Assembly: GCA_030653505.1 (NCBI GenBank)
Contig: JAURZK010000038.1
Location: 124,001 to 188,000 of the forward strand
DNA from: Rubrivivax sp.
Lineage (GTDB): Bacteria > Pseudomonadota > Gammaproteobacteria > Burkholderiales > Burkholderiaceae_C
Reading direction: 5' to 3'
DNA: 64,000 nucleotides
Shown: in pieces, positions 1 to 48,895 of the stretch
Layout: every line of letters begins with the position of its first letter
Numbering within the stretch: position 1 is the stretch's first letter
Notes under the pieces: model-generated
Told to the model about the DNA's origin: nothing
Databases searched by the model: none
The model's input: the letters and a program-made list of their open reading frames with translations, nothing else
Made by a program: the position numbers and the translations under genes

Positions 1-111
1 CTGCGCGCCGTCGGCAGCCCGCTCAAGTTCGACGGGTTCGCGCCGGTCTACGGCATGCCGCCGCTGCTGGACGAGCACCATCAAGAGGTGTTAGGCAAGG
101 CCGTCGCATGA
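1..111 (+). CDS. CaiB/BaiF family CoA transferase, C-terminal end (partial)
   Basis: Only the last 36 codons lie in the window; the frame is open from the first base to the TGA at 109-111. The residues VGSPLKFDG followed by PPLLDEHHQEVL match the usual C-terminal end of class III CoA transferases (formyl-CoA transferase type), which move CoA between acids. Its stop overlaps the start of the next gene (ATGA at 108-111), so the two are probably translationally coupled. The substrate cannot be judged from this fragment. Confidence 0.75.
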   Translation: MRAVGSPLKFDGFAPVYGMPPLLDEHHQEVLGKAVA

Positions 112-1004: not shown

Positions 1005-1027
1005 ATCGGCACCCCAAGGAGACATCG

Positions 1028-1993: not shown

Positions 1994-2008
1994 AGAAGGA
2001 ATCGCGTA

Positions 2009-2260
2009 TGTCTCAATGTTGAGTTGCAATAGGTTGTTCCCGCCAAGGCGGGAAGCCGGAGGCCTGTAGCCGAGGGCCGAATGTGGCCCTCGGGCGTTGT
2101 AGTAGGCCAGGAACGATGGCAGCAACGCAGTGCGCTCGGCGCTTGTGCTCCAGATGCGATCGTGGGCCCATTCGCGCAGGCAAGTCTGGATGAACCGTTC
2201 GGCCTTTCCATTGGTCTGCGGTCGGTAGGGCCTGGTGAACGTGTGCTTGATGCCCAAGGT
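2009..2260 (-). pseudogene. IS481-type transposase, C-terminal remnant
   Basis: On the minus strand the frame reads KHTFTRPYRPQTNGKAERFI, then LREWAHDR, LAYYNARGPHSALGYRPP and ends GGNNLLQLNI: the last part of the DDE integrase domain and C-terminus of IS481/IS3-like transposases. Upstream the frame is broken by a stop within a few codons (about 2262), so only about 80 of some 300 residues remain. The sequence TGTCTCAATGTTGAG starting at 2009 looks like the terminal inverted repeat, placing the old element end 15 bp after the Bug gene. Non-functional scar. Confidence 0.75.
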
Positions 2261-4900: not shown

Positions 4901-6871
4901 TCAGGCGGCGATCCTGGCCTGCAACTCGGTCACCGCCTCCGGGTTGACCAGCGACGACAGATCGCCTGGACTTTCACCCTTGTAGACCGCACGCACCACG
5001 CGGCGCATGATCTTCATGTTGCGCGTCTTCGGCAGGTCGCTCACCAGCAGCACCTGGCGCGGACGGTACGACGTGCCCATGCCCTTCACCACCGCGGTGG
5101 ACAGTTCCTGTTCCAACGCTGCGTCCGCCGTCACGCCGGGCATGGCGACGCAGACGCAGACGATGGCCGAGCCCTTGAGCTCGTCGGGCACGCCGATCAC
5201 GGCAGCCTCCGACACCTTGCCGGTGCCGGTGAGCAGGGTTTCGATTTCTGACGGCCCGGTGCGCTTGCCGGATATCTTGATGGTGTCGTCGCTGCGGCCC
5301 AGGATGTAGATCAGGCCCTCGGCATCGCGCATCGCGAAGTCGCCATGCACCCAGATGCCCGGCAAGGTGCGCCAGTAGCTGTCGAGGTAGCGCTCGTCGT
5401 CGCGCCAGAGGCTCTTGGTGAAGCCGATGTTGGGGTTGCGCAGCACCAGTTCACCGACCTGGCCGGCCGCGACCGGCCTGCCGGCGTCATCGACGATATC
5501 GGCGCCGACGCCCAGCCCGCCCATGCCGAACGAGCCCGGCCGCAGCGGATGGAGCACGGTGCCGGTGAAGTTGCAGCCGCCGACTTCGGTGCCGCCGACG
5601 ATGTTCAGGAAAGGCAACTTCTTCTTGCACACACGCTCAAAGAACCAGCGCCAGGGCGCTTCGGTCCAGGCTTCGCCGCCGGAGACCGTGACGCGCAGCG
5701 CCGACAGGTCGAAACCCTCGACCTCGGCGTCGCCGTAGCGCATCAGGCCGCGGATGAGCGTTGGCGCCACGCCCAGGTAGGTGACCTTGTGGTCCTGCAG
5801 CAGGCGCCAGAAGCGGCCGGTGTCGGGAAAGTCGGGTGTGCCTTCGGCGACGAGCAGGCTGCCGCCGAAATAGCTCGGGATGCAGGCGCACATGGCGCCG
5901 ACCATCCAGCCCATGTCGCTCATGAAGAAGAAGCGGTCGCTGGCCTTGAAGTCGGCGCAGATGTGCATGTCGCGCGTGACCATCGAGCCCAGGAAGCCCA
6001 CATGGGTCCACACCGCGCCCTTGGGCTTGCCGGTGGTGCCCGAGGTGTAGAGCAGCACGGCTGGGTCGTCGGCGGCCATCTCGGCTGTTGCCAGCTCGGC
6101 CGGCTGGCGCGCCACGGCGGCGGCCCAGTCCTGGTCGCGCCCGGCGGTCATGGGACAGGCGGGCAGGGCGTCGCCCAGGTGCCGCAGCACCAGCACATTC
6201 CGCACGCTGGGTACCGACACCAGCGCCTCGTCGAGCACCGACTTCATCGCGCCCGGCGTGCCGCGGCGCCATGTGCCGTCGACCGTGAGCACGACCTTGG
6301 CCTCGCCGTCGTTCAGGCGCGAGGCGATGGGCTGCGGACCGAAGCCCGAGAACAGCGGCATGACGACGGCGCCGATCTTCATCACCGCGAAGAAGGCGAT
6401 GAAGGTCTCGGGCAGGTTGGGCATGTACAGGCCGACGCGGTCACCGCGCTGCACACCCAGGGCCTGCAAGGCGCCGGCCAGGCGGCCGACCTCGGCGTCG
6501 AAGTCGCGGTAGCTCAGGCTGCGCTGGGCGCGCCGGTCTTCGCCCTCCCAGACCAGAAACGGGCGCTCCCAGGCCGGCGTACCGCGATGGCGGTCGATGC
6601 AGTTGAGCACGACGTTGGTCGTGCCCCCGACGCACCAGCGGGCCCATTCGATGCCGCGCGAGGTGTCCAGCATCTGCTGCGGTGGCTTGTAGAAGCGGAA
6701 GTCGCAGAACTCGAACACCTGCTGCATCAGCCAGGCCGGGTCGGCATCGGCGCGCCGGGACAGCGCCGCCAGGTCGGGCTCGCCGGTCTTGCGGATGAAG
6801 GCGGTGAGGTTGGAGTTCGCAACGATCTCGGGTGTAGGCACCCAAGCGAACGGCCGTTTGGTAGGATTCAT
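4901..6871 (-). CDS. Acetyl-CoA-synthetase-like acyl-CoA ligase (AMP-forming)
   Basis: 656 aa, with the N-terminal extension typical of acetyl/propionyl/acetoacetyl-CoA synthetases. The ATP loop YTSGTTGKPKGA lies near residue 275; WVHGDFA, GRSDDTIKISGKR and the C-terminal catalytic lysine in TRNMKIMRR are all intact. It activates a carboxylic acid to its CoA ester through an acyl-adenylate. SGFGPQPIASRLNDGEAK and the GGTEVGG segment differ from true AcsA, so the acid is probably not acetate. A monocistronic unit, divergent from the nitroreductase gene. A match to the operator motif overlaps codons 4-9 (site H). Confidence 0.88.
   Translation of the reverse strand: MNPTKRPFAWVPTPEIVANSNLTAFIRKTGEPDLAALSRRADADPAWLMQQVFEFCDFRFYKPPQQMLDTSRGIEWARWCVGGTTNVVLNCIDRHRGTPAWERPFLVWEGEDRRAQRSLSYRDFDAEVGRLAGALQALGVQRGDRVGLYMPNLPETFIAFFAVMKIGAVVMPLFSGFGPQPIASRLNDGEAKVVLTVDGTWRRGTPGAMKSVLDEALVSVPSVRNVLVLRHLGDALPACPMTAGRDQDWAAAVARQPAELATAEMAADDPAVLLYTSGTTGKPKGAVWTHVGFLGSMVTRDMHICADFKASDRFFFMSDMGWMVGAMCACIPSYFGGSLLVAEGTPDFPDTGRFWRLLQDHKVTYLGVAPTLIRGLMRYGDAEVEGFDLSALRVTVSGGEAWTEAPWRWFFERVCKKKLPFLNIVGGTEVGGCNFTGTVLHPLRPGSFGMGGLGVGADIVDDAGRPVAAGQVGELVLRNPNIGFTKSLWRDDERYLDSYWRTLPGIWVHGDFAMRDAEGLIYILGRSDDTIKISGKRTGPSEIETLLTGTGKVSEAAVIGVPDELKGSAIVCVCVAMPGVTADAALEQELSTAVVKGMGTSYRPRQVLLVSDLPKTRNMKIMRRVVRAVYKGESPGDLSSLVNPEAVTELQARIAA
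6847..6861. promoter_or_regulatory. Possible TetR-type operator inside a gene start, site H
   Basis: Plus strand CGAACGGCCGTTTGG fits the C-TAAC-N4-GTTTGG pattern with one change. Unlike the other sites it lies within coding sequence, about 10-25 bases after the start codon of the acyl-CoA ligase and about 110 bp before the divergent nitroreductase start. It could repress both genes, or be a chance match in the codons for TKRPF. Weaker than the intergenic sites. Confidence 0.25.
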
Positions 6872-16588: not shown

Positions 16589-17626
16589 TCAGAACCTGAA
16601 AGGCCAGTGGGTCCAGTAGTGTTTGATGTCGCGCCAGCGGCCGATCAGCCCGTCGGGTTCGAAGCGCAGGAACAGCACGATGGCCAGTCCGTAGACGATG
16701 CCCTTGATCTCGAAGAAGGAGGTCGTGGTCGCACCCGAACCGATGGCGCTGAACAGCAGCCCCAGGCCTTCGTTCAGGCCGAAGATGAAGACCGTGCCCA
16801 GCAAGGCGCCGGCCACCGAGCCGAGCCCGCCGACGATCAGCATCGACAGCGCTTCGATCGAGATCAGCAGGCTGAAGCTGTCGACGTTGAGGTAGCGCGT
16901 GTAGTAGGCCAGCAGGCCCCCGGCGATGCCGGTGTAGAAGGCGCTGACCATGAACGCCAGCAGCTTCCAGCGCACCAGGTCGACGCCCATCGCGCGCGCG
17001 GCGATGTCGTGTTCGCGGATCGCCATGAAAGCCCGGCCGACGCGGCTGCGCAACAGGTTCAGCGTCACCAGCACCGCCACCACCAACACGGCCAGGACCA
17101 CGAAGTAGTAGCCGCGCTCGGCCGCCAGCGTGGTGCCGAACAGGGCTGGCTGCGGCACCGACAGCCCCTCGGAGCCGCCCGTCAGGCCGCCGCCGTTGAG
17201 GATCAGGTGGTTGATGATGACCGCGAAGGCCATGGTCGTGATCGCCAAGTACAGGCCCTTCAGGCGCAGCGATGGCACGCCGACCACCAGCCCGGCGGCG
17301 GCCGCGCACACACCGCCGGCCAGCAGGCACAGCGGCATCGGCCAGCCCAGCTTGCCGGCCACGATGCCGGTGGCGTAAGCGCCGACGGCCAGGAAGCCGG
17401 AGTGCCCGAGCGAGATCAGCCCGGTGCTGCCGGTGAGCAGGTTCAGGCCGAGCACGCCGACGGCCGTGATCATCAGCAGCAGCACCAGCGAGATGTAGTA
17501 CTTGCTCAGCAGCATCGGCACCAGTGCCAGGGCGGCGACGAGCATCAGTGTCCAGACGATGACCGGCACCGAGTCCGTCAACGCCAGGACCTGGCGGTAG
17601 TTTTCCTTGAAGTTGCCGCTGCGCAT
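16589..17626 (-). CDS. livM: Branched-chain-type ABC transporter permease LivM
   Basis: 345 aa, very hydrophobic, with about eight to ten membrane segments. The family block GHSGFLAVGAYATGIVAG and the EAA-like stretch FMAIREHDIAARAMGVDLVRWKLLAF, with GGLGSVAGALLGTVFI near the end, identify LivM. With LivH it forms the membrane channel of a HAAT-family importer. Its start overlaps the livH stop by one base. No long cytoplasmic fusion domain is present. Confidence 0.92.
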   Translation of the reverse strand: MRSGNFKENYRQVLALTDSVPVIVWTLMLVAALALVPMLLSKYYISLVLLLMITAVGVLGLNLLTGSTGLISLGHSGFLAVGAYATGIVAGKLGWPMPLCLLAGGVCAAAAGLVVGVPSLRLKGLYLAITTMAFAVIINHLILNGGGLTGGSEGLSVPQPALFGTTLAAERGYYFVVLAVLVVAVLVTLNLLRSRVGRAFMAIREHDIAARAMGVDLVRWKLLAFMVSAFYTGIAGGLLAYYTRYLNVDSFSLLISIEALSMLIVGGLGSVAGALLGTVFIFGLNEGLGLLFSAIGSGATTTSFFEIKGIVYGLAIVLFLRFEPDGLIGRWRDIKHYWTHWPFRF

Positions 17627-18498
17627 CAGACTCGCTCAATATCGGGTTTTCCGAACAGACCGTAGGGCCTGACCATGAGGACGATCAGGATGAGCAGGAA
17701 GCCGGCGATCTCCTTCATGCCGCGGCCGATGTAGCCCTCGGACATGTTTTCGACCACGCCGATCAGGATGCCGCCCAGCGCTGCACCGAACACCGAGTCC
17801 AGGCCGCCGAGGATGACGGCCGGGAAGCTGCGCAGGCCGACCAGCCACATGCCCGGCTCGAGGTCGTAGATGACCCCCACCAGAACCCCGGCGATGGCGG
17901 CCAGGCCGGCGGACAGCGCCCATGACAGCGCGAAGATGCGCTTGACGTTGATGCCCATCAGCAAGGCCACGGTCTGCAGATTGGCGGTGGCACGCATCGC
18001 GATGCCCACCCGCGAGTAGCGGAAGAAGGCCCACAGCCCGGTCACCACCACGGCCATGATGCCCAGTGCGTGGAGCTGTGCCGGATAGACACCCGCCGGC
18101 CCGATCCGGATTGGCGCGGTCGACAGCCCGGTGGCCAGCGGCATCGGGTCCGCGCCCCAGATCAGCACCACCACCGAGCGGATGATGACGGCCAGCCCGA
18201 TCGTCACCATCACGGTCGAGAACACCGGCTGGCCCAGCATCGGGCGGATCAGCAGCACCTCGACCAGCAGGCCCAAGATGACCGAGACGACGACGGACGC
18301 CATCAGCAGCGGCCAGAAGCCGAGCTTGAAGGTGCCCGCCAGAGTGAAGGCGATGTAGGCCACCAGCATCATCAGCTCGCCCTGGGCGAAGTTCACTACG
18401 CCGGTGGCGCGGTAGATCATGGCGAAGCCCATGCCGATGAAGCCGTAGACCAGGCCCGCGGCGATGCCCGAGACGAGCAACTGGATGAAGTAGTCCAT
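17626..18498 (-). CDS. livH: Branched-chain-type ABC transporter permease LivH
   Basis: 290 aa, standard length. Typical sequence: GLVYGFIGMGFAMIYRATGV followed by NFAQGELMMLVAYIAF, the cytoplasmic loop VGIAMRATANLQTVALLMGI, and GGLDSVFGAALGGILIGVVE near the end. It pairs with LivM. It overlaps the preceding acyl-CoA synthetase gene by one base at 18498, so transporter and ligase are translationally linked. Confidence 0.92.
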   Translation of the reverse strand: MDYFIQLLVSGIAAGLVYGFIGMGFAMIYRATGVVNFAQGELMMLVAYIAFTLAGTFKLGFWPLLMASVVVSVILGLLVEVLLIRPMLGQPVFSTVMVTIGLAVIIRSVVVLIWGADPMPLATGLSTAPIRIGPAGVYPAQLHALGIMAVVVTGLWAFFRYSRVGIAMRATANLQTVALLMGINVKRIFALSWALSAGLAAIAGVLVGVIYDLEPGMWLVGLRSFPAVILGGLDSVFGAALGGILIGVVENMSEGYIGRGMKEIAGFLLILIVLMVRPYGLFGKPDIERV

Positions 18499-20378
18499 CA
18501 GGCGGTGCCTCCACCGTAGATCAGCTCGATCTCGCGTGCGAACTTGTTGCCGATGATGCTGCGGCGCACCTTCTGCGTGGCCGTCAGTTCGCCGTCGTCG
18601 TGGTCGAGTTCCTTCTCGAGGATGACGAACTTGCGGATGTTCTCGACGCGCGCGAACAGCTTGTTCACGCGCCGCACTTCCACGTCAACCAGATCGCGCA
18701 CCTCGGGCAGCTGTGACAGGCTGCGGTAGGTGGTGTAGGCCAGGCGACGTTCCTGGGCCCACTTGCCGACGGTTTCGTAGTCGATCTGCACCAGCGCCGA
18801 CAGGAAATGGCGACCGTCGCCGAGCACGATGGCTTCGCGCACGTAGATGCTGTCCTTGAGCGCGTTCTCAATTTCCGAGGGCGAGATGTTCTTGCCGCCG
18901 CTGGTGATGATGATGGCCTTCTTGCGGTCGACGATCATCAGCTCGCCGTTGGGCGCCAGCGCCACGACGTCGCCGGTGTGCAGCCAGCCGTCCTGGACCG
19001 TCAGCGCGGTGGCGTTGTTGTCGTGCAAGTAGCCCTTGAACACCGCCGGGTGCTTGACGATCAGTTCGCCGTCTTCGGCGATCTTCCAGTTCAGACCCTC
19101 GATCGGCGTGCCGGTAGCGCCCAGCCGCTCGGCCTTCCCGTGCTGGTGGAAGATGACGCCGCCCGACTCGGTCATGCCGTACACCTGGTACACGGGCAAG
19201 CCCAGGATGCGGAAGAACTTCAGCACCTCGGGCGAGACACTGGCGCCGCCGCAGAATCCGCAGCGCATGCGGTCCAGGCCGACGAACTTCTGCAGGTTGC
19301 GGAACATCAGCAGCCACAGCAGCGCGAACTGCAGCCGGTCGCCCCAGCTGCGATGCCCGCCGCGCTGCTCGGTGCGCTCGAACAGGGCCTTGCCGGCGGC
19401 GAAACAGCGCTCGAAGGCCCAGCGCTGCAGCCGCGTGGCGTCCTGCATGCGCATCACGATGCCCTGCTGCAGTTTTTCCCAGATGCGCGGCACGCCAAGG
19501 AAGACGGTGGGTGCGATCTCGCGCAGGTTGACAGACACGGTGTCGATCGACTCGGCGTAGTTCACCACGCCGCCGGTCATCATGTGCATGACGGTGGAGA
19601 AGGCGCGTTCGGCGACGTGGCACAGGGGCAGGTAACACAGCACCTGCATGTTGTGCTGGTCGAGCCCGAAATGGCTGCGCAGCTTGTCGGTGGTCACGAT
19701 CAGGTTGCGGTGCGACAGCATCGCGCCCTTGGGCGGCCCGGTGGTGCCCGAGGTGTAGACGAGCATGCAGGTGTCGTCGGGCTGCGTGGCGGCAATGCCG
19801 TCGTCGAAGGCGCGCGCCTGTTCCGCGTTGGCCGCGGCGTACTGGTCGCCGAGTTCGAGCACGTCCTCGAAGGACATCAGCATCTCGCGCGGGTACAGCC
19901 GCATGCCCTTCATGTCCACGGCGATGATCTTGGTGACGTCGGGCAGGCCGACCTCGTGCTTGGCGATGGCGTCCAGCACCTTGTCTACCTGCTCCTGGTC
20001 GCCGCAGACCACGAAGCGGCTGTTCGAGTGGTGGACGATGTACTGCAGCTCGGGCCACGGGTTGGTCGGGTAGATGCCGACCACCACGCCGCCGATGGCC
20101 TGCGTGCCCAGGTCGGCGAACATCCACTCGGGCGTGTCTTCGCTGGCGATGGCCAGGCGGTCGCCGCGGCGGAAACCCAGCGTCAACATGCCCAGCGCGA
20201 AGCGGCGCGCGGTGTCGTGGTAGTGGCGCCAGCTCATCCGGTTCCAGATGCCCAGATCCTTCTCGCGGAAGGCCAGCGCGTCGGGCGTGGTGCGGGCCCA
20301 GTGCTGCAGCAGCTTGGGCAACGTATGGTTGCCGCTGTGCAGGGCTTCGTGCAGGGCTTTGTGCTGGAGATTGCTCAT
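18498..20378 (-). CDS. Long-chain fatty-acid-CoA-ligase-type acyl-CoA synthetase
   Basis: 626 aa, of the FadD15/long-chain type. The ATP loop YTSGTTGPPKGAMLSH lies near residue 208, GFCGGASVSPEVLKFF and YGMTESGG mark the central region, WLHTGDVVA and DRKKAIIITSGGKNISPSEIE the hinge, and the catalytic lysine is in TATQKVRR. It turns a free acid into acyl-CoA with ATP. It is embedded between livG and livH with overlaps of 4 bases and 1 base, so imported acid can be activated at once; such liv-ligase gene clusters are known for aromatic and alicyclic acids. Exact substrate unknown. Confidence 0.9.
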   Translation of the reverse strand: MSNLQHKALHEALHSGNHTLPKLLQHWARTTPDALAFREKDLGIWNRMSWRHYHDTARRFALGMLTLGFRRGDRLAIASEDTPEWMFADLGTQAIGGVVVGIYPTNPWPELQYIVHHSNSRFVVCGDQEQVDKVLDAIAKHEVGLPDVTKIIAVDMKGMRLYPREMLMSFEDVLELGDQYAAANAEQARAFDDGIAATQPDDTCMLVYTSGTTGPPKGAMLSHRNLIVTTDKLRSHFGLDQHNMQVLCYLPLCHVAERAFSTVMHMMTGGVVNYAESIDTVSVNLREIAPTVFLGVPRIWEKLQQGIVMRMQDATRLQRWAFERCFAAGKALFERTEQRGGHRSWGDRLQFALLWLLMFRNLQKFVGLDRMRCGFCGGASVSPEVLKFFRILGLPVYQVYGMTESGGVIFHQHGKAERLGATGTPIEGLNWKIAEDGELIVKHPAVFKGYLHDNNATALTVQDGWLHTGDVVALAPNGELMIVDRKKAIIITSGGKNISPSEIENALKDSIYVREAIVLGDGRHFLSALVQIDYETVGKWAQERRLAYTTYRSLSQLPEVRDLVDVEVRRVNKLFARVENIRKFVILEKELDHDDGELTATQKVRRSIIGNKFAREIELIYGGGTA

Positions 20379-21154
20379 GCTGCCGCCTGTGCGCCGCCCA
20401 GGTAAGCGGCGATCACCGCCGGATTGGCGGAGATCTCGGCCGGCGTGCCTTCGCCGATCTTGCGGCCGAAGTTGAGCACGCAGATGCGGTCGGAAATGTC
20501 CATCACGATGCCCATGTCGTGTTCGACCATCAGCACGGTGATGCCGAGTTCGTCGCGAATGTCGAGCACGAATCTCGCGATGTCCTCGGTTTCTTCGGTG
20601 TTCATGCCCGAGACCATCTCGTCGAGCAGCAGCAGCTTGGGCTCGGTCGCCAGCGCGCGGCCGAGTTCGACGCGCTTTTGCATGCCGTAGGACAGGGCGC
20701 CCACCGGCATGTCGCGGATGTCCTCGATCTCGAGGAAGTCGATGATCTCCTCGACCTTGCGCCGATGTTCGAGTTCCTCGCGCCGGGCGCGGCCGAAAAA
20801 CCAGGCCGCATCGAAGACATTGCTGCGCATGTGGCAGTGGCGGCCGACCAGCAGGTTCTGCACCACGGTCGCATGCTTGAACACGGCCAGGTTCTGGAAG
20901 GTGCGGCCGATTCCGATGGCCGACATGCGGTGCGAGGCCGTGCCGGTGATGTCGCGGCCTTCGAAGTGCACCGTGCCGCCACTCGGGCGCACGACGCTGC
21001 TGATCATGTTGAAGGTGGTGGTCTTGCCGGCGCCGTTCGGGCCGATCAGCGAATAGATCTCGCCACGCCGCACATGGAAGCTGACGCCGGCCACGGCTTC
21101 GACGCCGCCGAAGCGCTTGGACAGGCCTTCGACCTGCAAGAGGATGTCGTTCAC
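20375..21154 (-). CDS. livG: Branched-chain-type ABC transporter ATP-binding protein LivG
   Basis: 259 aa. Walker A GPNGAGKTTT starts at residue 38; the signature region is LSYGMQKRVELGRALATEP, followed by Walker B LLLLDEMVSGMN and the switch histidine in LMVEHDMGIVMDISDRI. The QHCHMRSN-like long insert (RHCHMRSNVFDAAWFF) is usual for LivG. It powers the importer together with LivF. The stop overlaps the start of the acyl-CoA synthetase gene by four bases. Confidence 0.93.
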   Translation of the reverse strand: MNDILLQVEGLSKRFGGVEAVAGVSFHVRRGEIYSLIGPNGAGKTTTFNMISSVVRPSGGTVHFEGRDITGTASHRMSAIGIGRTFQNLAVFKHATVVQNLLVGRHCHMRSNVFDAAWFFGRARREELEHRRKVEEIIDFLEIEDIRDMPVGALSYGMQKRVELGRALATEPKLLLLDEMVSGMNTEETEDIARFVLDIRDELGITVLMVEHDMGIVMDISDRICVLNFGRKIGEGTPAEISANPAVIAAYLGGAQAAA

Positions 21155-21178
21155 GTCAATTGCTCCGGCGCAGGTGGG

Positions 21179-21970
21179 TCATGACAACCAACGCTTGCGG
21201 CGCTTGTAGTGCTTCACGTCGCGCATGTTCTTGCGCGAACCGCCCTCGCCGAAGCCGAGGTAGAACTCGCGCACATCTTCGTTGCGCAGCATCTTGTCGG
21301 CCGGGCCGTCAAGGACGACGCGGCCGTTTTCCATGATGTAGCCGTTGTCGGCGATGGACAGCGCCATCTGCGCGTTCTGCTCGACCAGCAGGATGCTCAC
21401 CCCGTCCTGCCGGCACAGCCGGGTGACGATGGCGAAGATCTCCTCGCAGATCTGCGGCGCCAGCCCGAGCGTGGGTTCGTCGAGCATCAGCAGCTTGGGC
21501 GCCGACATCAGTGCGCGGCCGATGGCCACCATCTGCTGTTCGCCGCCGGACAGGTAGCCCGAAACCGTAGTGCGCTTGGGCGTCAGGCGCGGGAACGTGG
21601 CGTAGACGCGCTCCAGGCCGAGCTTGGACTCGGCCACCGAGCGCGTGTAGCCGCCCATCAGCAGGTTCTCCTCGACCGTGAGCTGGTCGAACAGCCGCCG
21701 GCCCTCGGGCACCATGACGACGCCGGCGCGCACGATGCGGTCGGGCGTCATGCCGGTCAGTGGCTGGCCCTCGAAGGTGATCTGGCCGCCCTTGACCTCT
21801 CCGTCTTCGGGGTAGAGCACGCCGCTGATGGCCTTCAGCGTCGTGGACTTGCCGGCGCCGTTGGCACCCAGCAGGGCGACGATCTGTTGCTGGCCCAACG
21901 CGAGCGACGCCTCGCGTACGGCTTCGATCGTGTTGTCATAGACGATCTGGACATTGGTCAGGGTCAGCAT
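21179..21970 (-). CDS. livF: Branched-chain-type ABC transporter ATP-binding protein LivF
   Basis: 263 aa. Walker A GANGAGKST at 35-43, signature YLSGGEQQMVAIGRALMSAP, Walker B LLMLDEPTLGLAP and VEQNAQMALSIADNGYIME. The C-terminal tail RKNMRDVKHYKRRKRWLS is more basic than in most LivF proteins and is seen in aromatic-acid-type liv systems. First gene of the operon livF-livG-ligase-livH-livM-livK-livK-carboxylase (three genes); operator site B lies 88 bp upstream. Confidence 0.93.
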   Translation of the reverse strand: MLTLTNVQIVYDNTIEAVREASLALGQQQIVALLGANGAGKSTTLKAISGVLYPEDGEVKGGQITFEGQPLTGMTPDRIVRAGVVMVPEGRRLFDQLTVEENLLMGGYTRSVAESKLGLERVYATFPRLTPKRTTVSGYLSGGEQQMVAIGRALMSAPKLLMLDEPTLGLAPQICEEIFAIVTRLCRQDGVSILLVEQNAQMALSIADNGYIMENGRVVLDGPADKMLRNEDVREFYLGFGEGGSRKNMRDVKHYKRRKRWLS

Positions 21971-22154: not shown

Positions 22155-22946
22155 TCAGGCCTTGCCAGCGCCGAACTTGCGGAAGTCCGGCTTGCGCTTT
22201 TCCAGGAATGCGCGCACGCCTTCCTTGGACTCGTCGGTGTTGTAGTACAGGCTGAGCGCCTGCATGCCGAGGCTGCCGATGCCGCGGATGTTTTCGGTCG
22301 AAGCATTGAACGAGCGCTTGGCGATGGCGATGGCCGTCGGGCTCTTCTCGACGATCTCGCGCCCCCACTTGGCAACCTCGGCATCAAGTTGTGCGTGAGG
22401 CACGACCACGTTGACCAGCCCCATGGCCAGTGCCTCTTGTGCGCTGTAGCGCCGGCACATGTACCAGATCTCGCGCGCCTTCTTCTCGCCGACGACCTGC
22501 GCCAGATAGGCCGTGCCCCAGCCGGGGTCGACCGAGCCGACCTTGGGACCGACCTGGCCGAACACCGCCTTGTCCGAGGCGATCGTCATGTCGCACAGCA
22601 CCGCGATCACGTTGCCGCCGCCGATGGCGTAACCCTGCACGCGCGCGATCACCGGCTTGGGCACGTCGCGGATCACACTGTGCAGTTCCTCGATCGGCAG
22701 GCCCGCGGTGCCGCGACCGTCGTACTGGCCGGAGTGGGCCGACTGGTCGCCGCCGGTGCAGAAAGCGCGATCTCCGGTGCCGCCCAGCACGATCGCCGCG
22801 ACGTTCTTGTCCCAGCCCGCCTTCATCATGGCGTGCAGCATCTCCTCGACCGTCTGGCCACGGAACGCGTTCATCACGTCGGGCCGGTTGATCGAGATGT
22901 AGGCGATCTGGTCGCGCTCCTCGTAGACGATGTCCTGGTAGCTCAT
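22155..22946 (-). CDS. badI: BadI-like 2-ketocyclohexanecarboxyl-CoA hydrolase (ring-cleaving crotonase)
   Basis: 263 aa, crotonase fold. Several blocks match my recollection of Rhodopseudomonas BadI: NRPDVMNAFRGQT, DRAFCTGGDQSAHSGQYDG, RDVPKPVIARVQGYAIGGGN, FGQVGPKVGSVDPGWGTAYL and REIWYMCRRYS; DPGWGT in place of the usual enoyl-hydratase PGAGGT is a ring-hydrolase feature shared with MenB-like enzymes. BadI opens 2-ketocyclohexane-1-carboxyl-CoA to pimelyl-CoA. It lies 11 bp after a BadH-like dehydrogenase gene, the same pair order as in the known pathway. A related ring substrate is possible. Confidence 0.8.
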   Translation of the reverse strand: MSYQDIVYEERDQIAYISINRPDVMNAFRGQTVEEMLHAMMKAGWDKNVAAIVLGGTGDRAFCTGGDQSAHSGQYDGRGTAGLPIEELHSVIRDVPKPVIARVQGYAIGGGNVIAVLCDMTIASDKAVFGQVGPKVGSVDPGWGTAYLAQVVGEKKAREIWYMCRRYSAQEALAMGLVNVVVPHAQLDAEVAKWGREIVEKSPTAIAIAKRSFNASTENIRGIGSLGMQALSLYYNTDESKEGVRAFLEKRKPDFRKFGAGKA

Positions 22947-22957
22947 GGGCTTGCCTC

Positions 22958-23752
22958 TCAGCCGATCATGCTGTAGCCGCCGGAGACCGACAGCACCTGC
23001 CCGGTCACGTGGCCCGCCTTGCTCGATGCCAGGAAGGCGACGGCGTTGGCGATGTCCTGCGGCCGGCCGACCTTGCGCAAGGGCAGCGACTTGGCGATCT
23101 TGTCGAACTGCTCGGGCGTGAACATGCTGTCGGCCTTGCTCCACATGCTGTTGCCGCCGACCTCGTCGGTCGTTGCGGGAATGGTCACGCCGGGGCAGAC
23201 CACGTTGCAGCGGATCCCGTAGCGGCCGTTCTCCTTGGCGATCGTCTTCATGAAGCTGTTGACCGCCGCCTTCACGCCGCCGTAGACCGCCTCGCGCGGC
23301 TCGCCCTGGCGGCTGGCGTCGGAACTGATCGAGACAATGGCGCCGCCGTTCTGCTTGACCATCAGGTCGAGCGCGGTCTTGGTGCAGTTCAGCACGCCGA
23401 CATAGTTGATGTCGATCACCTTTCGCCAGAAGTCCGGCGTCGTCTGGGTGAAGAACATCAGGTTGTCCCAGCCGACGTTGTTGACCAGCACGTCGACGCG
23501 GCCGTGTTTGTCGGTCGCCGCCTTGAACATGGCCTGAACCTGCTCGAGGCTGGTGACGTCGGTCTTGATCACCTGAACCGATGCGGCGCCGAGTTTGGTG
23601 GCGAATTCGGCCGTCTTGTCGGCCTGCGCGGTGTCGACATCGCCGATGGTGATGTGCGCGCCTTCGCCGGCGAACGCCAGCACGATGGCGCGGCCGATGT
23701 TGGAGCCGCCGCCGGTGACGATGACGGATTTGTCTTTCAGTTCGAGATCCAT
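22958..23752 (-). CDS. badH: BadH-like 2-hydroxycyclohexanecarboxyl-CoA dehydrogenase (SDR)
   Basis: 264 aa short-chain dehydrogenase. Cofactor loop TGGGSNIG at 13-20, NNVGWDN in place of NNAG, catalytic Ser in SISSDASRQGEPREA and the Tyr-x3-Lys pair in YGGVK. NNVGWD, SSDASR and the end TGQVLSVSGGYSMIG resemble BadH, which oxidises the 2-hydroxy ring acyl-CoA to the 2-keto form. Placement directly before badI supports this. First gene of its unit, with operator site C 55 bp upstream. SDR family is certain; the exact substrate is inferred. Confidence 0.78.
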   Translation of the reverse strand: MDLELKDKSVIVTGGGSNIGRAIVLAFAGEGAHITIGDVDTAQADKTAEFATKLGAASVQVIKTDVTSLEQVQAMFKAATDKHGRVDVLVNNVGWDNLMFFTQTTPDFWRKVIDINYVGVLNCTKTALDLMVKQNGGAIVSISSDASRQGEPREAVYGGVKAAVNSFMKTIAKENGRYGIRCNVVCPGVTIPATTDEVGGNSMWSKADSMFTPEQFDKIAKSLPLRKVGRPQDIANAVAFLASSKAGHVTGQVLSVSGGYSMIG

Positions 23753-26952: not shown

Positions 26953-28137
26953 TCAGGCGCGCTCGAAGATCGCGGCGATGCCCTGCCCGCCGCCGATGCA
27001 CATCGTCACCAGCGCGTAGCGCCCCTGGATGCGCTGCAACTCGTACAGCGCCTTGGTGGTGATGATCGCGCCCGTGGCGCCCACCGGATGGCCGAGCGAG
27101 ATGCCCGAGCCGTTGGGGTTGACCTTGGCGGGGTCGAGTTCGAGGGCGCGCGCCACGGCGCAGGCCTGCGCGGCAAAGGCTTCGTTGGACTCGACCACGT
27201 CGAGGTCGTTGACACCGAGGCCGGCGCGTTTGAGGGCCAGGCGCGAGGCCGGTACCGGGCCCAGGCCCATCAGCTTGGGGTCCACGCCGGCGTGGGCGTA
27301 AGCCACCAGCCGAGCCAGCGGCTTGAGCCCGCGCGCCTGGACGGCGGCGCCGGTGGCCAGAACCACGGCCGATGCGGCGTCGTTCAAGCCCGAGGCGTTG
27401 CCGGCCGTCACCGAACCGTCCTTCTTGAAAGCCGGCTTCATGGCCGCCAACTGCTCCAGGGTGACGTTGCCGCGCACATGCTCGTCAGTGTCGAAGGCCA
27501 CCGTGCCCTTGCGCGTGGCCATGGTGACGGCGACGATCTGGCTCTTGAACCGGCCTTCGGCGATGGCGTGGGCCGCGCGCTGCTGACTGGCCACCGCCAG
27601 CGCGTCCTGCATGTCGCGCGTGATGCCTGCGCTGGCAGCAACGTTCTCGGCCGTGATGCCCATGTGGATGGCATGGAAGGGGTCGTGCAGCACGCCGAGC
27701 ATGTAGTCGGTCATGGGCGCATCGCCCATGCGTGCCCCCCAGCGCGCGGCAGGCAGCAGGTAGGGCCCGCGGCTCATCGACTCGGCGCCACCTCCGATGG
27801 CGATCTCGGCGTCGCCAAGCAGCAGGGTTTGCGCCGCCGAGATGATGGCTTGCAGGCCCGAGCCGCACAGCCGGTTGACGTTGAATGCCGGCGTCTCGTT
27901 CGGAATGCCGGCCTCGATGGCGGCCACGCGCGCCAGGTAGGCGTCGCGCGGTTCGGTGGGGATGACGTTGCCCAGCACCACGTGGTCGATGCTGGCGGCG
28001 TCGGTGCCGGCGCGGGCGATGGCCTCGCGTACCGCCGTGCTGGCCAGTTGCGACAGCGGCACGTCCTTCAGCGCACCGCCAAAGCTGCCAATGGCGGTCC
28101 GCGTTGCGCTGACGACATAGATTTCGGGCTTGTTCAT
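26953..28137 (-). CDS. Acetyl-CoA acyltransferase (thiolase)
   Basis: 394 aa. All thiolase catalytic residues are present: nucleophile C91 in NRLCGSGLQA, the histidine in GSGISLGHPVGATGA and the C-terminal cysteine in MCIGGGQG. BktB/PhaA-like biosynthetic or degradative thiolase that cleaves 3-ketoacyl-CoA to acetyl-CoA and a shortened acyl-CoA. It is the last gene of the tetR-mutase operon. The presence of a complete thiolase here contrasts with the Cys-less paralogue at 57.7-58.9 kb. Confidence 0.92.
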   Translation of the reverse strand: MNKPEIYVVSATRTAIGSFGGALKDVPLSQLASTAVREAIARAGTDAASIDHVVLGNVIPTEPRDAYLARVAAIEAGIPNETPAFNVNRLCGSGLQAIISAAQTLLLGDAEIAIGGGAESMSRGPYLLPAARWGARMGDAPMTDYMLGVLHDPFHAIHMGITAENVAASAGITRDMQDALAVASQQRAAHAIAEGRFKSQIVAVTMATRKGTVAFDTDEHVRGNVTLEQLAAMKPAFKKDGSVTAGNASGLNDAASAVVLATGAAVQARGLKPLARLVAYAHAGVDPKLMGLGPVPASRLALKRAGLGVNDLDVVESNEAFAAQACAVARALELDPAKVNPNGSGISLGHPVGATGAIITTKALYELQRIQGRYALVTMCIGGGQGIAAIFERA

Positions 28138-28185: not shown

Positions 28186-28524
28186 TCAGGCGGGGCGTGC
28201 AGGGGCGGCATCGGCGCCTCGGGCGCTGCCGTGCCCCAGGCCCACGGCTTGCTCGGCCTCGGCAAACAGGCCGCGCAGGGCCTCGTCCGCCGCTTGCGAT
28301 GCAACCTCGCCGCAATAGGCCCAGTCGGACGCCGGGACGAGCGCACGCACACGCACCGCGGCCAGCAGCCGCAACAAAGCCAGGCGACGGTGCCCCATCG
28401 CAACGCTGCGTGCGAGCAAGGCCAGCGCACTGGCCTGTGCTGCCGCCGCAGCCGGCGCGCACGCGTCGGGGCGCGCGCCTACGGCCAGGCTGCGTTTGAG
28501 TAGACGGATCGGCGGACGGGCCAT
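28186..28524 (-). CDS. Small Ala/Arg-rich hypothetical protein
   Basis: 112 aa, not recognised. Its ATG overlaps the stop of the MeaB-thioesterase gene (ATGA at 28521-28526 region), and it ends 48 bp before the thiolase start, filling the gap in an otherwise tight operon. Composition is rich in Ala, Arg and Leu with a helical pattern (ASALALLARSVAMGHRRLAL, then LLRLLAAV) and no membrane segment or signal peptide. High GC makes chance reading frames common here, so it may not be real; the coupling to its neighbour is the main support. Confidence 0.45.
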   Translation of the reverse strand: MARPPIRLLKRSLAVGARPDACAPAAAAAQASALALLARSVAMGHRRLALLRLLAAVRVRALVPASDWAYCGEVASQAADEALRGLFAEAEQAVGLGHGSARGADAAPARPA

Positions 28525-29750
28525 CAGTTCAGCAGCGGCGCGAGGCCCGGCCGCTCGCCCGGCGCTGCGACCGGCACCGGCTTGCCGGTGACGTAGACCG
28601 TTCCCGACAGGCAGGCGATGTGCGCCTGGTCGCTGGCGCGGCTCACATCGACACGGTACACGCCGACCTTGCGCGAGCGCGACACCTCGGTGGCATGCGC
28701 CACCAGCCAGTCGCCCGGCTCGACGCCGGTCGAGATGCTGATGTTGCCGTCGATCAACGCGGCGATCGTGCCGTGCGAATTGCAGGCCAGGCCGAGCGCC
28801 ATGTCGCCCAGCGAGAAGATGGCGCCGCCGTGGCAGCGGCCGTTGAAGTTCAGATGCTGCGGCCCGACCCGCATGCGCACGGTGGCCGTGCCGCGGGCCG
28901 CAGCCACGAGTTCGAACCCCAGATGCCTGCCGTAGCCGTCGGCGGCAATCGAACGTGCGACCAGGTCGCGCGCGGCGCGGTCCTCGGTGGCGGCGTGGCG
29001 GCTGCCGCGCTGCGTGCGCTGTTCCAGCCAGTCGACCAGTTCGCGCAAGCCTTCGCCGGTGGTCGCGATGGTGCGCAGAACCGGCGGCTTGGCAGCCGGG
29101 CCGCGGCGCAGCGTCAGCATCGACAGCAATTCGTTCTCGGTCCGCTGCGCGTCGGGCAGGTCGGCCTTGCTGACGACGAAGGCGTCGGCGATCTCCAGCA
29201 CGCCGGCCTTGATGGCCTGGATGTCGTCGCCCAGCCCCGGCGGGCAGACCACCAGGCGTGTGTCGGCGATGCGCGTGACCTCGACCTCGGACTGCCCGGC
29301 GCCGACGGTTTCGACGATCACCGTGTGGTAGCCGGCGGCATCGAAGACATCGACGACGTCGGTGGCCGAGCGTGCCAGCCCGCCCAGGTGGCCGCGCGAG
29401 GCGAGCGAGCGGATGAACACCCCTTCGTCGGCCTGGTGCTCGCCCATGCGGATGCGGTCGCCGAGCACGGCGCCGCCGGTGAAGGGGCTGGACGGATCGA
29501 CCGCGACCACCGCCACCGTGTGGCCGCGCACGCGCAACTGCCTGATCAGGCCCGACACCAGCGTGGACTTGCCGCCCCCCGGCGGCCCGGTGACGCCGAC
29601 AACATGCGCGCGGCCCACGTGCGCGGCCACCCCGGCGCGAACGGTGTGCGCGCTGTCGCTGTCGTTTTCCAGCGCCGTGATGGCGCGCGCCACCGCGCGC
29701 CGGTCGCCTGCCAGGATGGCTTCGAGCGGGTTCGTTTCGGCGTTCATCAC
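28524..29750 (-). CDS. Fusion of MeaB-type GTPase and PaaI-type hotdog thioesterase
   Basis: 408 aa. Residues 1 to about 255 are a MeaB/G3E GTPase: GPPGGGKST at 55-63, [34 protein letters not shown] and SKADLPDAQ. Residues about 265-395 are a PaaI-like hotdog domain with the motif [16 protein letters not shown] (301-316), typical of acyl-CoA thioesterases. The reading frame is continuous. The GTPase half should chaperone the mutase encoded just upstream (overlap of four bases); the hotdog half could hydrolyse an acyl-CoA that blocks or leaves the mutase. I know no characterised protein of this architecture. Confidence 0.88.
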
Positions 29751-31429
29751 ACGATCGTCAAGGGCCGACCGAAGCCCATTTCACGGCGCAGCGTGGCGCA
29801 GATCTCGCCATGCGTGGCGCTGGCTTCGGCTGCGGCGACGACCTGCGCGAACACGTTGTCGCGCTTCGACTGCGCGGCCGCGGCCAGCGCAGCGAGCGCC
29901 TTGTCCACCGCGGCGGCGGAGCGTTCGGCCTTGAAGGCCTTGAGCCGGATCAGGTAGGCGTCCATGCGGGCGCGGTCCGGGTAGTCGAGCGCGGGGTAGT
30001 CGGCCGCGTCTTCCTCGACGGTGTACTTGTTGACTCCGACCACGGTCTCCGCGCCGGCGTCGACGCGTTTCTGGAAGGCCAGCGCCGAGTCTCCGATCAT
30101 CTTCTGCACCAGGCCCTTTTCGACCGCCTTGTACATGCCGCCCGCAGCGTCGATCAGGTCAATGATGGCCTCGATCTTCTGCTGCATCGCGTCGGTCAGC
30201 GACTCGACGTAATACGAGCCGCCGAGCGGGTCGATGACGTCGGTGAGGTGGGCTTCCTCGCGCAGGATGTTCTGCGTCGCCACGGCGATGCGCGCGGCCT
30301 CCGTCGTGGGGGTGGAGAAGACCTCATCGTAGGAATCGGTGTGCAGCGACTGCAGGCCGCCGAAGATGCCGGCCATGGCCTGCGTGGTGACGCGGGCGAT
30401 GTTGTTCAGCGGCTGCTGGCGCGTCAGGTCCACGCCCGAGGTCTGGCCGTGGAACTTGAAGCGCCACGAGCGCGGGTCCTTGGCGCCGAAGCGTTCGCGG
30501 CACAGTTTGGCCCAGACGCGGCGGCCGGCGCGGAACTTGGCGACCTCTTCGAACAGGCTGACCGAGATGTCGAAGAAGAAGGTGAAGCGCGGCAGGAAGC
30601 GGTCGGGGTCCATGCCCGCGGCGATGCAGTCTTCGGCGTACTGGATGGCCGAGCACAGCGTGAAGGCCATCGCCTCTGCCGGCGTGGCCCCCGCCTGCTG
30701 CATGTGCTGGCCGACGATGGACAGCGGGTTCCAGCCCGGCACCTGTTCGTTGGCGAAGGCGATGTGGTCGACCACGATGCGCCGCGCACCCTGCAGCGCG
30801 ATGCGGAAGAACATGTGGTTGGCGACGAAGTGCGAGATGCAGTCGCTCTGGTTCGAGGTGCCGGTGATGCGCGTCCAGGGCACGCCGCGCCGCTTGGCCA
30901 CCGCCAGTTCGAAGGCTAGCAGCGTGAACGGCGTGGGGTCGTTCATGGCCGTGGACAGGTCGCCGATGGGCACGCCGTCGAGCGCGCGGTCCATGTCGCC
31001 GACGTGGTTGATCACCGTGCCGCAGGTGCCCAGCAGTTCGGCCGGCACCTCGTCGGCGTCGTAGCCGCGGAAGACCGAGTTGCACGGGATCAGCGACAGC
31101 GCCGACGCGCCCAGCGCCAGCATCTCCTTGACGCGGCTGTTGTAGTCCTCGGGCACCCCCAGGCCGATGAGCTGGCGCTGCGACCAGCTGCGCCCCCGGT
31201 ACATCGTGGGGTAGATGCCGCGGGTGTAGGGGAACTCGCCGGGGAAGCCCAGGCTGTCGGCATAGGCCGCGCCCGACCAGTCGCGCGGCGTGTACAGCGG
31301 CTTGATCTCGACGCCGGAGCGATTGCGCAGCGGCTCTGGCTGCCCGGCACCGGCGGCAAATTCCTGCTCCCAGCGGGCCTGGGCCTGCGACAGGTCGGCG
31401 CCAGCGATTTGGCGGACGGGCTTGTTCAT
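29747..31429 (-). CDS. B12-dependent acyl-CoA mutase, large (catalytic) subunit, divergent type
   Basis: 560 aa, the size of the large subunits of isobutyryl-CoA and 2-hydroxyisobutyryl-CoA mutase; no B12 domain at the C-terminus. TIM-barrel landmarks are clear: [71 protein letters not shown] and [14 protein letters not shown]. By motif alignment, pocket residues differ from known mutases: Leu87 where MCM has Tyr89 (Phe in ICM, Ile in HCM), Asn204 at the MCM Arg207 position, Gln241 for Tyr243, and LIPCNS (113-118) replacing the usual VAFDLPT-like loop. His242 is kept. Carbon-skeleton rearrangement of an unknown acyl-CoA is likely. Confidence 0.85.
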
Positions 31430-31851
31430 GCGGAGGCTCCTTGGCGGGCGTGACGCGCGGCGGCCAGCGCGCGCACGGCGGTGACGATGTCGTCGAGCGC
31501 GGCGCCGGGGTGGAAGACCTGGGCGACGCCGGCCGCCAGCAGCACCTTCTCGTCCTTGGCGGGCACGATGCCACCGACGATGACCTGGATGTCGGCCAGC
31601 CCGGCGGCGCGCAGCGCGTCCATCAGCCGGGGCACGATCAGGTGGTCGGTGGCCAGTGACGAGATGCCGATGACGTCGGCGTCCTCTTCCATCGCCAGCT
31701 TGACGACGGTGGGGATCTCCTGCCACGGCGGGGTGTATATGACCTCCATGCCGGCATCGCGCAGGCAGGCGGCGATGACGCGGCTGCCGCGGTCATGGCC
31801 GTCGAAGCCGATCTTGGTGACGATGACCTTGGGCGGGTGTTCATGCTGCAT
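31426..31851 (-). CDS. B12-dependent acyl-CoA mutase, small (cobalamin-binding) subunit
   Basis: 141 aa, a stand-alone B12-binding domain. The lower-ligand motif D-x-H-x2-G is present as DGHDRG near residues 17-22, followed by [17 protein letters not shown] and the GGIVPAKDE segment. It binds adenosylcobalamin and pairs with the large subunit, whose start codon overlaps its stop by four bases. Its 5' end overlaps the tetR gene by 11 bases, placing it second in the operon. Sequence of this subunit is ordinary; specificity lies in the large subunit. Confidence 0.92.
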
Positions 31852-46493: not shown

Positions 46494-47648
46494 TCAGGCC
46501 GGCAGCTGCAGTACGTTGGTGGCCAGAATATTGCGCTGGATCTCGTTGCTGCCCCCGTAGATGGTGGCAGGCCGCGCGTTGTAGAAGGTGGTCAGCACAT
46601 CGATGCAACCGCCCTCGACCTCGATATCGCCCGGCATGCCGCCGCTGGCGCCGGCAAGCTCGACCAGCAGGTTGGCCAGGCGCGAATAGGTCTCGGTGGC
46701 GAAGACCTTCAGCATCGACACGTCGGGGCCCAGCGTCTCGCCGCGTTTGACCTGGTCGACGAAGCGGGTGTACAGCGTGCCCAGATCGGCCACGTCCAGC
46801 GCCAGCTGCGTGTAGCGGTCCGTGAACACGGGGTCGTCGAACAAGCCGAGCAGTTCGGCCGCCTCGCGCACCCGGGCCAGCGCGTACTGGCTCTGCTTGG
46901 GGCTGCCGAGGAAGATGCGTTCGAAGCTGAGCAGCGCCTTGGCGATCGTCCAGCCCTTGTTCAGCTCGCCGACGCGCTGGCTGCGCGGGACGCGCACGTT
47001 GTCGAAGAAGACCTCGCAGAAGTCCTCGTTGCCGGCGATGTTGCGGATCGGGCGCACGGTGATGCCCGGCGTCTTCATGTCGGCGAGCAGAAAGCTGATG
47101 CCCTCCTGCTTCTTCGCCGCCTTGTCGGTGCGCACCAGCAGGAAGATGTGCGTGGCGTCCTGGGCCAGGGTGGTCCAGGTCTTCTGGCCATTGACGATGA
47201 AGTCGTCGCCGTCTTCCACCGCCTCGGTGCGCAGGCTTGCCAGGTCGGAACCCGAGTTGGGCTCGGAATAGCCCTGGCACCAGATGTCTTCGCACGACAG
47301 GATGCGCGGCAGGTAGTGCGCGCGTTGTTCTTCGCTGCCGTGCTGGATGAGCAGCGGGCCGACCATGGAAATGCCCATGTCCGGGGCGCGGGCGACCCCG
47401 TGACGTTCCTGCTCCTCGATGAAGGCGATCAGCTTCTCGGGGGCCAGACCCATGCCGCCGTAGCGCACGGGCCAGCTCGGCGCCAGCCAGCCCTGAGCCG
47501 AAAGCTCGAGCGTCCAGTCGCGGATCTCGGCCCAGCGCAGGCGACGTTTGGGGTAGCGCAGGGCTTCGGGGTAGTTGTGCTCGAAGAAACTGCGCACCGT
47601 GGCGCGGAAGTCCTCGGTGTCCAGGCTGTTCCAGTCGGTGGTGTTCAT
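46494..47648 (-). CDS. Acyl-CoA dehydrogenase subunit (FadE alpha-type of a heteromeric pair)
   Basis: 384 aa. Substrate/FAD blocks YSEPNSGSDLASLRTEAV and VNGQKTWTTLAQDA; the end has IYGGSNEIQRNILA, in which the usual catalytic Glu (Y-E-G-S) is Gly. The next gene, overlapping by four bases, is a second, shorter-motif dehydrogenase, the arrangement of alpha2-beta2 acyl-CoA dehydrogenases such as the mycobacterial steroid-side-chain ChsE pairs, in which only one subunit carries the base. Probably acts on a branched or ring-bearing side chain. Confidence 0.88.
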   Translation of the reverse strand: MNTTDWNSLDTEDFRATVRSFFEHNYPEALRYPKRRLRWAEIRDWTLELSAQGWLAPSWPVRYGGMGLAPEKLIAFIEEQERHGVARAPDMGISMVGPLLIQHGSEEQRAHYLPRILSCEDIWCQGYSEPNSGSDLASLRTEAVEDGDDFIVNGQKTWTTLAQDATHIFLLVRTDKAAKKQEGISFLLADMKTPGITVRPIRNIAGNEDFCEVFFDNVRVPRSQRVGELNKGWTIAKALLSFERIFLGSPKQSQYALARVREAAELLGLFDDPVFTDRYTQLALDVADLGTLYTRFVDQVKRGETLGPDVSMLKVFATETYSRLANLLVELAGASGGMPGDIEVEGGCIDVLTTFYNARPATIYGGSNEIQRNILATNVLQLPA

Positions 47649-48832
47649 GCAGAGGCTCCCGGCTGCCGTGCAGCGTTGCGGCTCAGGGCCGCGAAGCGGC
47701 GGCGTTGCACGCCGGCGTTGCCGAGCCAGGCCGACAGCACCAGCGCGCGCTGCACGTACAGACCCAGGTCGCAGTCGTCCGTGACGCCGATGGCCCCGTG
47801 CAGCTGGACCGACTCGCGGGCGATCGTCAGCGCGGCCTCCGAGCAGCGCGACTTGACGCGGGCAGCGAGCAGTGCCCGCTCGCTGCCCGTGCAACCGCGG
47901 TCGAGTTCGGCCAGCGCCTGGGCGACGAGGGCGCCGCTCAGTTCCTGCTGGATCAGCATGTCCACCGCGCGGTGCTGCAAGGCCTGGAAGCTGCCGATCA
48001 GCTTGCCGAACTGCTTGCGCGTGCGCAGGTAGTCCAGCGTCATCGACAGCATCCGCCTTGCGACCGACAGCAGTTCGACGCCGGTCAGCACCAGCGTTTC
48101 GTCGTAGGCCGCGGCAAGCGCAGCGGTGGCGGGCGGGCCCATGGCCAGCAGGTGAGCCGCTGGCACGGTGACGTTGACGAACTGCAGGCGCGCAGCGAAC
48201 GTGCCATCGGCAAGCCGGTCCACGTTCCTGACCAGCCCCACGCATTGCGCGGGCAGCCAGACCAGCGCCAGGCCCTCCGACGATGAAGCGGTGACGATGT
48301 AGCCGGTGGCTGCCGCGCCCGGCCGCACGTGACGCTTGCCGCCGCGCAGCACGAGCTGGTCGCCCTCGCGCACACAGACCGCAGCCGGCTCGGCAGGGCA
48401 GCCCCGAAGGTCGAAGCTGGCGGCGCCGGAGGCGTCCTCCTGCCAGGCCACGGCGGGCAGCGCGCGACCCTCGGCCAGCTCCGCGAGCAGCGCCTGCGCC
48501 GTTGTGCTGCCGGCGCAACTCTGCAGCAGGCGGCCTGCGAACACCAGCACCGGGGTCACGGGCTCGGGTGCGGCCTGTGTCGCCAGAGCGGTTGCCACCT
48601 CGGCCATCTCGGCGAAGCCCTGTCCGTAGCCGCCTGCGGACTCGGGCACCAGCAACCCGGTCCAGCCTTGGGTTGCCAGGGCATTCCAGAAGCGCAGGTC
48701 GAAGCCCGGCGCCTTGGCGCGCAAGGCCCGCGCGCGCGATGCAGGTGACTCTCTGCTGGTGAAGGCGAGGGCGCTGGAACGCAGCATGTCAAGCTGCTGC
48801 TGGCGGTCTGTATCGGCGATGACGGCGGACAT
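47645..48832 (-). CDS. Acyl-CoA dehydrogenase subunit (beta-type of a heteromeric pair)
   Basis: 395 aa from ATG 48832; an ORF start at 48877 is less likely. The N-terminal half is divergent (GWTGLLVPESAGGYGQGFAE), the central beta domain is short, and the C-terminal helices have YLRTRKQFGKLIGSFQALQH and VQLHGAIGVTDDCDLGLYVQ without any E-G-T motif. It overlaps the partner dehydrogenase gene (ATGA). Expected to form a heterotetramer with it; half of the FAD sites may be empty, as described for the ChsE family. Confidence 0.85.
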   Translation of the reverse strand: MSAVIADTDRQQQLDMLRSSALAFTSRESPASRARALRAKAPGFDLRFWNALATQGWTGLLVPESAGGYGQGFAEMAEVATALATQAAPEPVTPVLVFAGRLLQSCAGSTTAQALLAELAEGRALPAVAWQEDASGAASFDLRGCPAEPAAVCVREGDQLVLRGGKRHVRPGAAATGYIVTASSSEGLALVWLPAQCVGLVRNVDRLADGTFAARLQFVNVTVPAAHLLAMGPPATAALAAAYDETLVLTGVELLSVARRMLSMTLDYLRTRKQFGKLIGSFQALQHRAVDMLIQQELSGALVAQALAELDRGCTGSERALLAARVKSRCSEAALTIARESVQLHGAIGVTDDCDLGLYVQRALVLSAWLGNAGVQRRRFAALSRNAARQPGASA

Positions 48833-48895
48833 GGGGCGGCGTGCGATGGCGTGCGTTGTTCGGCGGGGACGGGTCAATACGGGATCAGTACGGGA

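Follow-up and report, generated by a model that had tools for sequence, protein, structure and literature searches.

The mutase described here is encoded in a 64,000-nucleotide stretch of Rubrivivax sp. DNA (the window, meaning the whole stretch that was analysed), and its best solved relative, by sequence and by fold, is HCM (PDB 4r3u). The two have the fold, the two-subunit plan and the equivalents of His244 and Gln197 in common, but they are 37.5% identical, and the window mutase does not carry the Ile, TDFD, Gln and Tyr that occupy four pocket places in HCM. HCM binds the hydroxyl of its substrate through an Asp, and we take its signature positions to be Ile90, Asp117 and Gln208. With methylmalonyl-CoA mutase (MCM; PDB 2xij, 1req) the window mutase shares the fold and the catalytic His and Gln, but not Tyr89, Arg207 or Tyr243, and the FDLPT loop of MCM is replaced. 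IcmF (PDB 4xc6 and others) has the reaction type and the catalytic His in common with the window mutase, but is a single fused chain with Phe and Gln in its pocket, and the IcmF-type protein used for comparison is 28% identical to the window enzyme. IcmF also turns over pivalyl-CoA, and the pivalyl-CoA/isovaleryl-CoA reaction is in print for it (PMC10481361). Structures of IcmF with isovaleryl-CoA and pivalyl-CoA are, by their titles, 5cjv and 5cjw.

A further relative is Xaut_5043 of Xanthobacter autotrophicus Py2, 64.3% identical to the window large subunit over 557 positions and annotated on deposition as methylmalonyl-CoA mutase. We take Xaut_5043/5044 to be the authentic pivalyl-CoA/isovaleryl-CoA mutase (PCM), which was reportedly characterised by Kitanishi et al. 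in J Biol Chem in 2015. Two subunits, a Pro-Cys-x-Ser loop and a one-residue insertion are common to Xaut_5043 and the window mutase, as is the gene order TetR, B12 subunit, large subunit, MeaB, PaaI-type, except that MeaB and the PaaI domain are fused in the window and are separate genes in X. autotrophicus Py2. There the neighbours are 5045 (TetR), 5044 (B12 subunit), 5042 (LAO/AO ATPase, MeaB type) and 5041 (PaaD), with CoA ligases (5040 and 5039) and ABC transporter genes (5034, 5036–5038) also nearby. From these comparisons we suggest, with a probability of about 0.6, that the window encodes a two-subunit AdoCbl enzyme of the PCM type with its own MeaB chaperone.

Gene unit around the mutase

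16589..21970, minus strand: branched-chain-type ABC transporter genes and an AMP-ligase-like frame (about 18516–20324)
26953..28137, minus strand: BktB-type thiolase adjoining the unit (NF006552, 695 bits, cut-off 565)
28524..29747, minus strand: MeaB GTPase chaperone fused to a PaaI-like hotdog thioesterase domain (about 28590–28925)
29747..31429, minus strand: catalytic large subunit, pivalyl-CoA mutase clade, 560 aa from ATG
31426..31851, minus strand: B12-binding small subunit of the mutase, 141 aa
31841..32677, minus strand: upstream TetR-type regulator, start codon uncertain (several TetR models, none over cut-off)

The two mutase coding sequences are open, overlap by 4 bases, and lie at the coordinates given in an earlier, sequence-only reading of this DNA. 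The NCBIfam models over cut-off for both subunits are broad acyl-CoA mutase domain models, namely TIGR00641 for the large subunit (501 bits, cut-off 304) and TIGR00640 for the small subunit (131 bits, cut-off 57), whose translation carries a D-G-H-D-R-G (DxHxxG) motif. On the large subunit the MCM equivalog NF006944 scores 443 bits, half its cut-off of 876, and the IcmF model NF045497 scores 201 bits against a cut-off of 1500. A separate B12 subunit and a MeaB chaperone are thus present within one gene unit; the MeaB part matches TIGR00750 (293 bits, cut-off 241), and the thioesterase part matches TIGR00369 (54 bits, cut-off 37) and falls under the cut-off of the PaaI model TIGR02286 (83 bits, cut-off 119).

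Gene order was surveyed in 82 loci (the best 80 of 211 stretches from a species-genome scan, plus Diaphorobacter L088 and Xanthobacter L140), with the window's own genes as queries at E < 1e-5, a search in which diverged neighbours are missed. Where more than 1.5 kb of upstream sequence was available, the small subunit was found in 69/70 loci and TetR in 62/70. Downstream flanks longer than 3 kb were available for 64 loci. MeaB was found in 53 of these and not in the other 11, the latter counting against the PCM reading. The PaaI domain was part of a fusion in 28 and a separate gene in 8, gave no hit within 6 kb in 16, and was otherwise arranged in 12. The MeaB fusion and the TetR gene noted earlier beside the mutase are confirmed (TIGR00750 and TIGR00369; TetR in 62/70). 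The thiolase, which had been named as a dedicated partner, was rejected as such, as a BktB-like gene lies just downstream in only 4/64 loci, and three of those four encode a mutase 98–99% identical to the window protein.

When the neighbouring frames of 81 loci were clustered, the same core emerged; next came ABC transporter genes and a frame named by eye as an AMP ligase, present in 10 to 18 of these loci. Compared with the genes beside the Diaphorobacter mutase, the window ATPases are 51–53% identical and the ligase and permeases 32–34%; compared with Xanthobacter, the ligase is 33% and one ATPase 53% identical. These window genes lie at least 7 kb from the mutase and adjoin BadI/BadH-like genes, and a possible role for them is acid uptake and CoA activation for the mutase substrate.

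Pocket residues and phylogeny

The residues on which the earlier reading had built its case are all present in a multiple alignment. Leu87 stands opposite Tyr in human MCM, Ile in HCM 4r3u and Phe in an IcmF (the 5REQ chain, by its title a Y89F mutant, also shows Phe here), Asn204 stands opposite MCM Arg207 and opposite Gln in HCM and IcmF, Gln241 stands opposite MCM Tyr243, and an S-L-I-P-C-N-S loop takes the place of S-V-A-F-D-L-P/A. The catalytic positions are kept, His242 corresponding to His244 and Gln194 to Gln197 in the alignment with HCM, MCM, IcmF and others. Two features absent from the earlier reading are a one-residue insertion, Asn193, and Ile114, which falls where the TDFD motif of HCM has its first Asp, presumably HCM Asp117 from its offset to Ile90. 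The window protein thus has Leu, Ile and Asn instead of the HCM signature Ile90, Asp117 and Gln208, and Leu and Asn instead of the Phe and Gln of ICM/IcmF.

These substitutions are not due to chance, because they are fixed across 88 related loci (the best 80 of the 211 genome-scan stretches and 8 from the window's family, some contigs being counted twice). L87, P115, C116, S118, N193, Q194, N204, Q241 and H242 each occur in 88/88 and N117 in 87/88, and position 114 is I in 78/88 and L in 10/88. Among the matches listed from a protein search, Gln241 was found in 120/120, Asn204 in 115/120 and Leu87 in 91/120, the remainder being pattern mismatches; that search scored 7998 candidates, 7996 of them passing E 1e-30, a count that takes in other mutase subtypes. 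The proposal of an acyl-CoA mutase with a non-MCM pocket therefore stands. The further proposal of a pocket unlike any described subtype does not, provided that Xaut_5043 is the PCM we take it to be, since the pocket places of Xaut_5043 read QRQLIG, SLLPCCS, GTSNQSD, IANH and VGQHMQ, giving the same L87, P115, C116, S118, N193, N204, Q241 and H242. Xaut_5043 differs in having Leu at 114 and Cys at 117, where the window protein has Ile114 and Asn117; Cys117 occurs in 1/88 related loci.

A tree of 49 rows combined the window protein and Xaut_5043 with 22 of the 88 family loci and 25 further mutases, some of the rows from genomes being typed as a mutase subtype by residues only. The 24 family rows, including the window protein and Xaut_5043, form one clade (100/100) apart from MCM and HCM, which form separate clades of six rows each (both 100/100), and the IcmF, ECM and R. 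fascians rows are long branches of unsure placement. Phylogeny, which had been named as a check, accordingly puts the window protein in a clade with Xaut_5043; that the clade is a characterised one follows from what we take Xaut_5043 to be. The stem of the PCM-type clade measures 1.91 changes per column, and because of this length the window protein would look like a new subtype to a reader without a PCM sequence. HCM, ICM and MCM identities were rejected on pocket residues and tree, and ECM on 29% identity to the Ruegeria 'protein meaA', which lies outside the clade on a long branch of unsure placement. Within the clade, the window protein and Xaut_5043 fall in different subclades, and because of this, and because Cys117 is found in only one of the 88 loci, the window's subclade might conceivably act on a different substrate. 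An AlphaFold model built from 26 sequences gave a clear fold, with 4r3u as the top structural match (TM 0.82); its pocket stretches 56–88 and 201–206 have pLDDT < 50, and pocket geometry was not drawn from it.

By record titles, the best 80 of the 211 scan stretches with a relative come from Beta-, Alpha- and Gammaproteobacteria, Nocardioides, Prescottella, Acidimicrobiales and others. In the window's family, a relative at E <= 1e-150 was present in 11 of 299 genomes drawn, the window's own included. Plasmid records gave 426 with a match, six of them at 60–80% identity, the second row being Xaut_5043 on pXAUT01. An HCM-type mutase, with the Ile, TDFD and Gln signature, was found in at least 4 (L104, L105, L107, L109) of 42 PCM-carrying genomes tested, these being the genomes of 42 of the best 80 loci. 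The L107 enzyme, from the same genome as L001, is near-identical in the tree to the Aquincola enzyme.

A second mutase module and other window genes

C21:119199–125990 (L092 2199–8990): second mutase module of the window's genome
Window 108–1993, plus strand: MeaB of this module and a Bug-type binding protein

The large-subunit gene of this second module, mutB (C21:120863–122485), ends 1.5 kb before the window starts. The module comprises an IclR regulator, an enoyl-CoA hydratase, large and small mutase subunits, a MeaB of its own and a class III CoA transferase, a gene make-up that recalls IaaGH and IaaL of indoleacetate degradation (PMC8360864). In the alignment mutB keeps Tyr89 and Arg207, and should therefore act on a carboxylated acyl-CoA. 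The distance between the module and the PCM-type large subunit is about 31 kb in the window's genome and 11 kb in Diaphorobacter sp. HDW4B, and in Hydrogenophaga sp. 2FB and a Bradyrhizobium MAG the module and the PCM-type unit are about 12 kb apart. Beside the module are an IS256 family transposase (L085 13772–14953, minus strand, 354 bits) and, by eye, an integrase-core-like frame (window 1643–2257, minus strand).

A mutB of at least 67% identity was present in 10 of the 42 PCM-carrying genomes, in one of the ten in two pieces, and a close mutB was absent from the other 32; in two of the ten (L138, L139) no PCM-type gene was seen by eye in the 19–20 kb around mutB. Both of these findings speak against a tight link between the two. 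In the window's family mutB was found at E <= 1e-200 in 3/299 genomes, two of which also have the PCM type. As the 42- and 299-genome samples differ in taxonomy, this co-occurrence is a lead. One pathway that it would suit, and that we consider improbable, is the joint degradation by both mutases of a gem-dimethyl or ring-derived quaternary acid, in which the carbon skeleton would be rearranged twice, once in a neutral intermediate and once in a carboxylated one.

Elsewhere in the window, positions 22155–23752 (minus strand) encode a BadI-type 2-ketocyclohexanecarboxyl-CoA hydrolase (469.2 bits, cut-off 467.6) and a BadH-like dehydrogenase below cut-off, genes pointing to alicyclic acid degradation. 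Frames like the large and small subunits of pimeloyl-CoA dehydrogenase, both below cut-off, lie at 46494–48877 (minus strand), and a Baeyer-Villiger-kind flavin monooxygenase at 2425–4053 (minus strand), its best specific model being neopentalenolactone D synthase, far below cut-off.

Proposed reaction and naming of the family

Loss of Arg207 and Tyr89 would remove the carboxylate site, so that a free carboxylate would not be bound, and the hydroxyl-binding Asp of HCM is missing as well; the hydrophobic Leu87 and Ile114 would suit an alkyl-substituted alpha carbon, and a neutral, alpha-branched acyl-CoA would fit. In the PCM-type reaction a 5'-deoxyadenosyl radical would abstract H from one of the methyl groups borne by the quaternary carbon in pivalyl-CoA, and the C(O)SCoA group would migrate 1,2 to give isovaleryl-CoA, with His242 helping as His244 does in MCM. 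MeaB would serve in cofactor loading and repair, and the fused PaaI-like domain may release CoA from stalled thioesters. Isovaleryl-CoA would then enter a leucine-type degradation. In favour of this, the window's genome has an HMG-CoA lyase on contig C133 (NF004283, 445 bits, cut-off 246). Genes of the carboxyltransferase and biotin-carboxylase types lie no more than 7 kb from it; they match broad models only, below cut-off, and no specific model names this carboxylase as methylcrotonyl-CoA carboxylase. An acyl-CoA dehydrogenase-like frame (by eye) lies about 15 kb from the lyase, and a frame in between, taken for an enoyl-CoA hydratase, had no model match; this and the lack of a specific model for the carboxylase tell against the PCM reading.

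The function thus assigned draws on what we take Xaut_5043 to be and on the match in residues, clade and gene order; the substrate, the direction, the downstream route and the role of the thioesterase are what we infer. A quaternary acyl-CoA was among the substrates suggested earlier, and fits the interconversion of pivalyl-CoA and isovaleryl-CoA; the new carbon-skeleton rearrangement suggested along with it probably gives way to an active site that matches the pivalyl-CoA mutase type.

The alternative that survives best, though we think it rather unlikely, is that the enzyme belongs to the PCM clade but has a different neutral quaternary acyl-CoA as its true substrate, such as a 2,2-dimethylacyl-CoA of greater chain length or a ring acyl-CoA whose alpha carbon is quaternary, and is part of a catabolic island that handles alicyclic or gem-dimethyl acids. 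The neighbouring genes do point to alicyclic acids over pivalate, which counts against the PCM reading: the BadI-type hydrolase passes its cut-off (469 against 468 bits) and is accompanied by the BadH-like dehydrogenase, the pimeloyl-CoA dehydrogenase-like genes (below cut-off) and the Baeyer-Villiger-like monooxygenase, and the second mutase module is close by. The separation from the subclade of Xaut_5043 agrees with this alternative, but the clade-defining pocket residues are common to both proteins, and the conservation of one gene unit in both Proteobacteria and Actinobacteria speaks for a single common substrate. Far less probable is an HCM or ICM mutase whose pocket has drifted; in its favour, the best solved relative is HCM, and outside the clade the nearest sequence, at 43%, is ICM-like and bears the Phe/Gln signature (G_L103), but HCM forms its own six-row clade (100/100), and the window protein has no equivalents of Ile90, TDFD and Gln208 and no ICM Phe/Gln. 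That it is a methylmalonyl-CoA mutase, as many relatives are named on deposition and as the name of the broad model TIGR00641 would have it, is least probable of all, given 443 bits against 876 for NF006944, no Tyr89, no Arg207 and a separate MCM clade (100/100), and methylmalonyl-CoA is, as the sequence-only reading held, an improbable substrate.

On the PCM reading, the enzyme type is one already described, and the window mutase appears to be a member of an existing group, with a fused chaperone-thioesterase. The PCM-type group spans several bacterial classes and has a fixed pocket signature, yet the only name that the NCBIfam library used offers for it is that of the broad methylmalonyl-CoA mutase domain. 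If the group had a named profile of its own, based on L87, PC.S, the inserted Asn, Asn204 and Gln241, these genes would no longer be called methylmalonyl-CoA mutase, and bacteria with the capacity to attack acids with a quaternary carbon, pivalate for instance, would be flagged.
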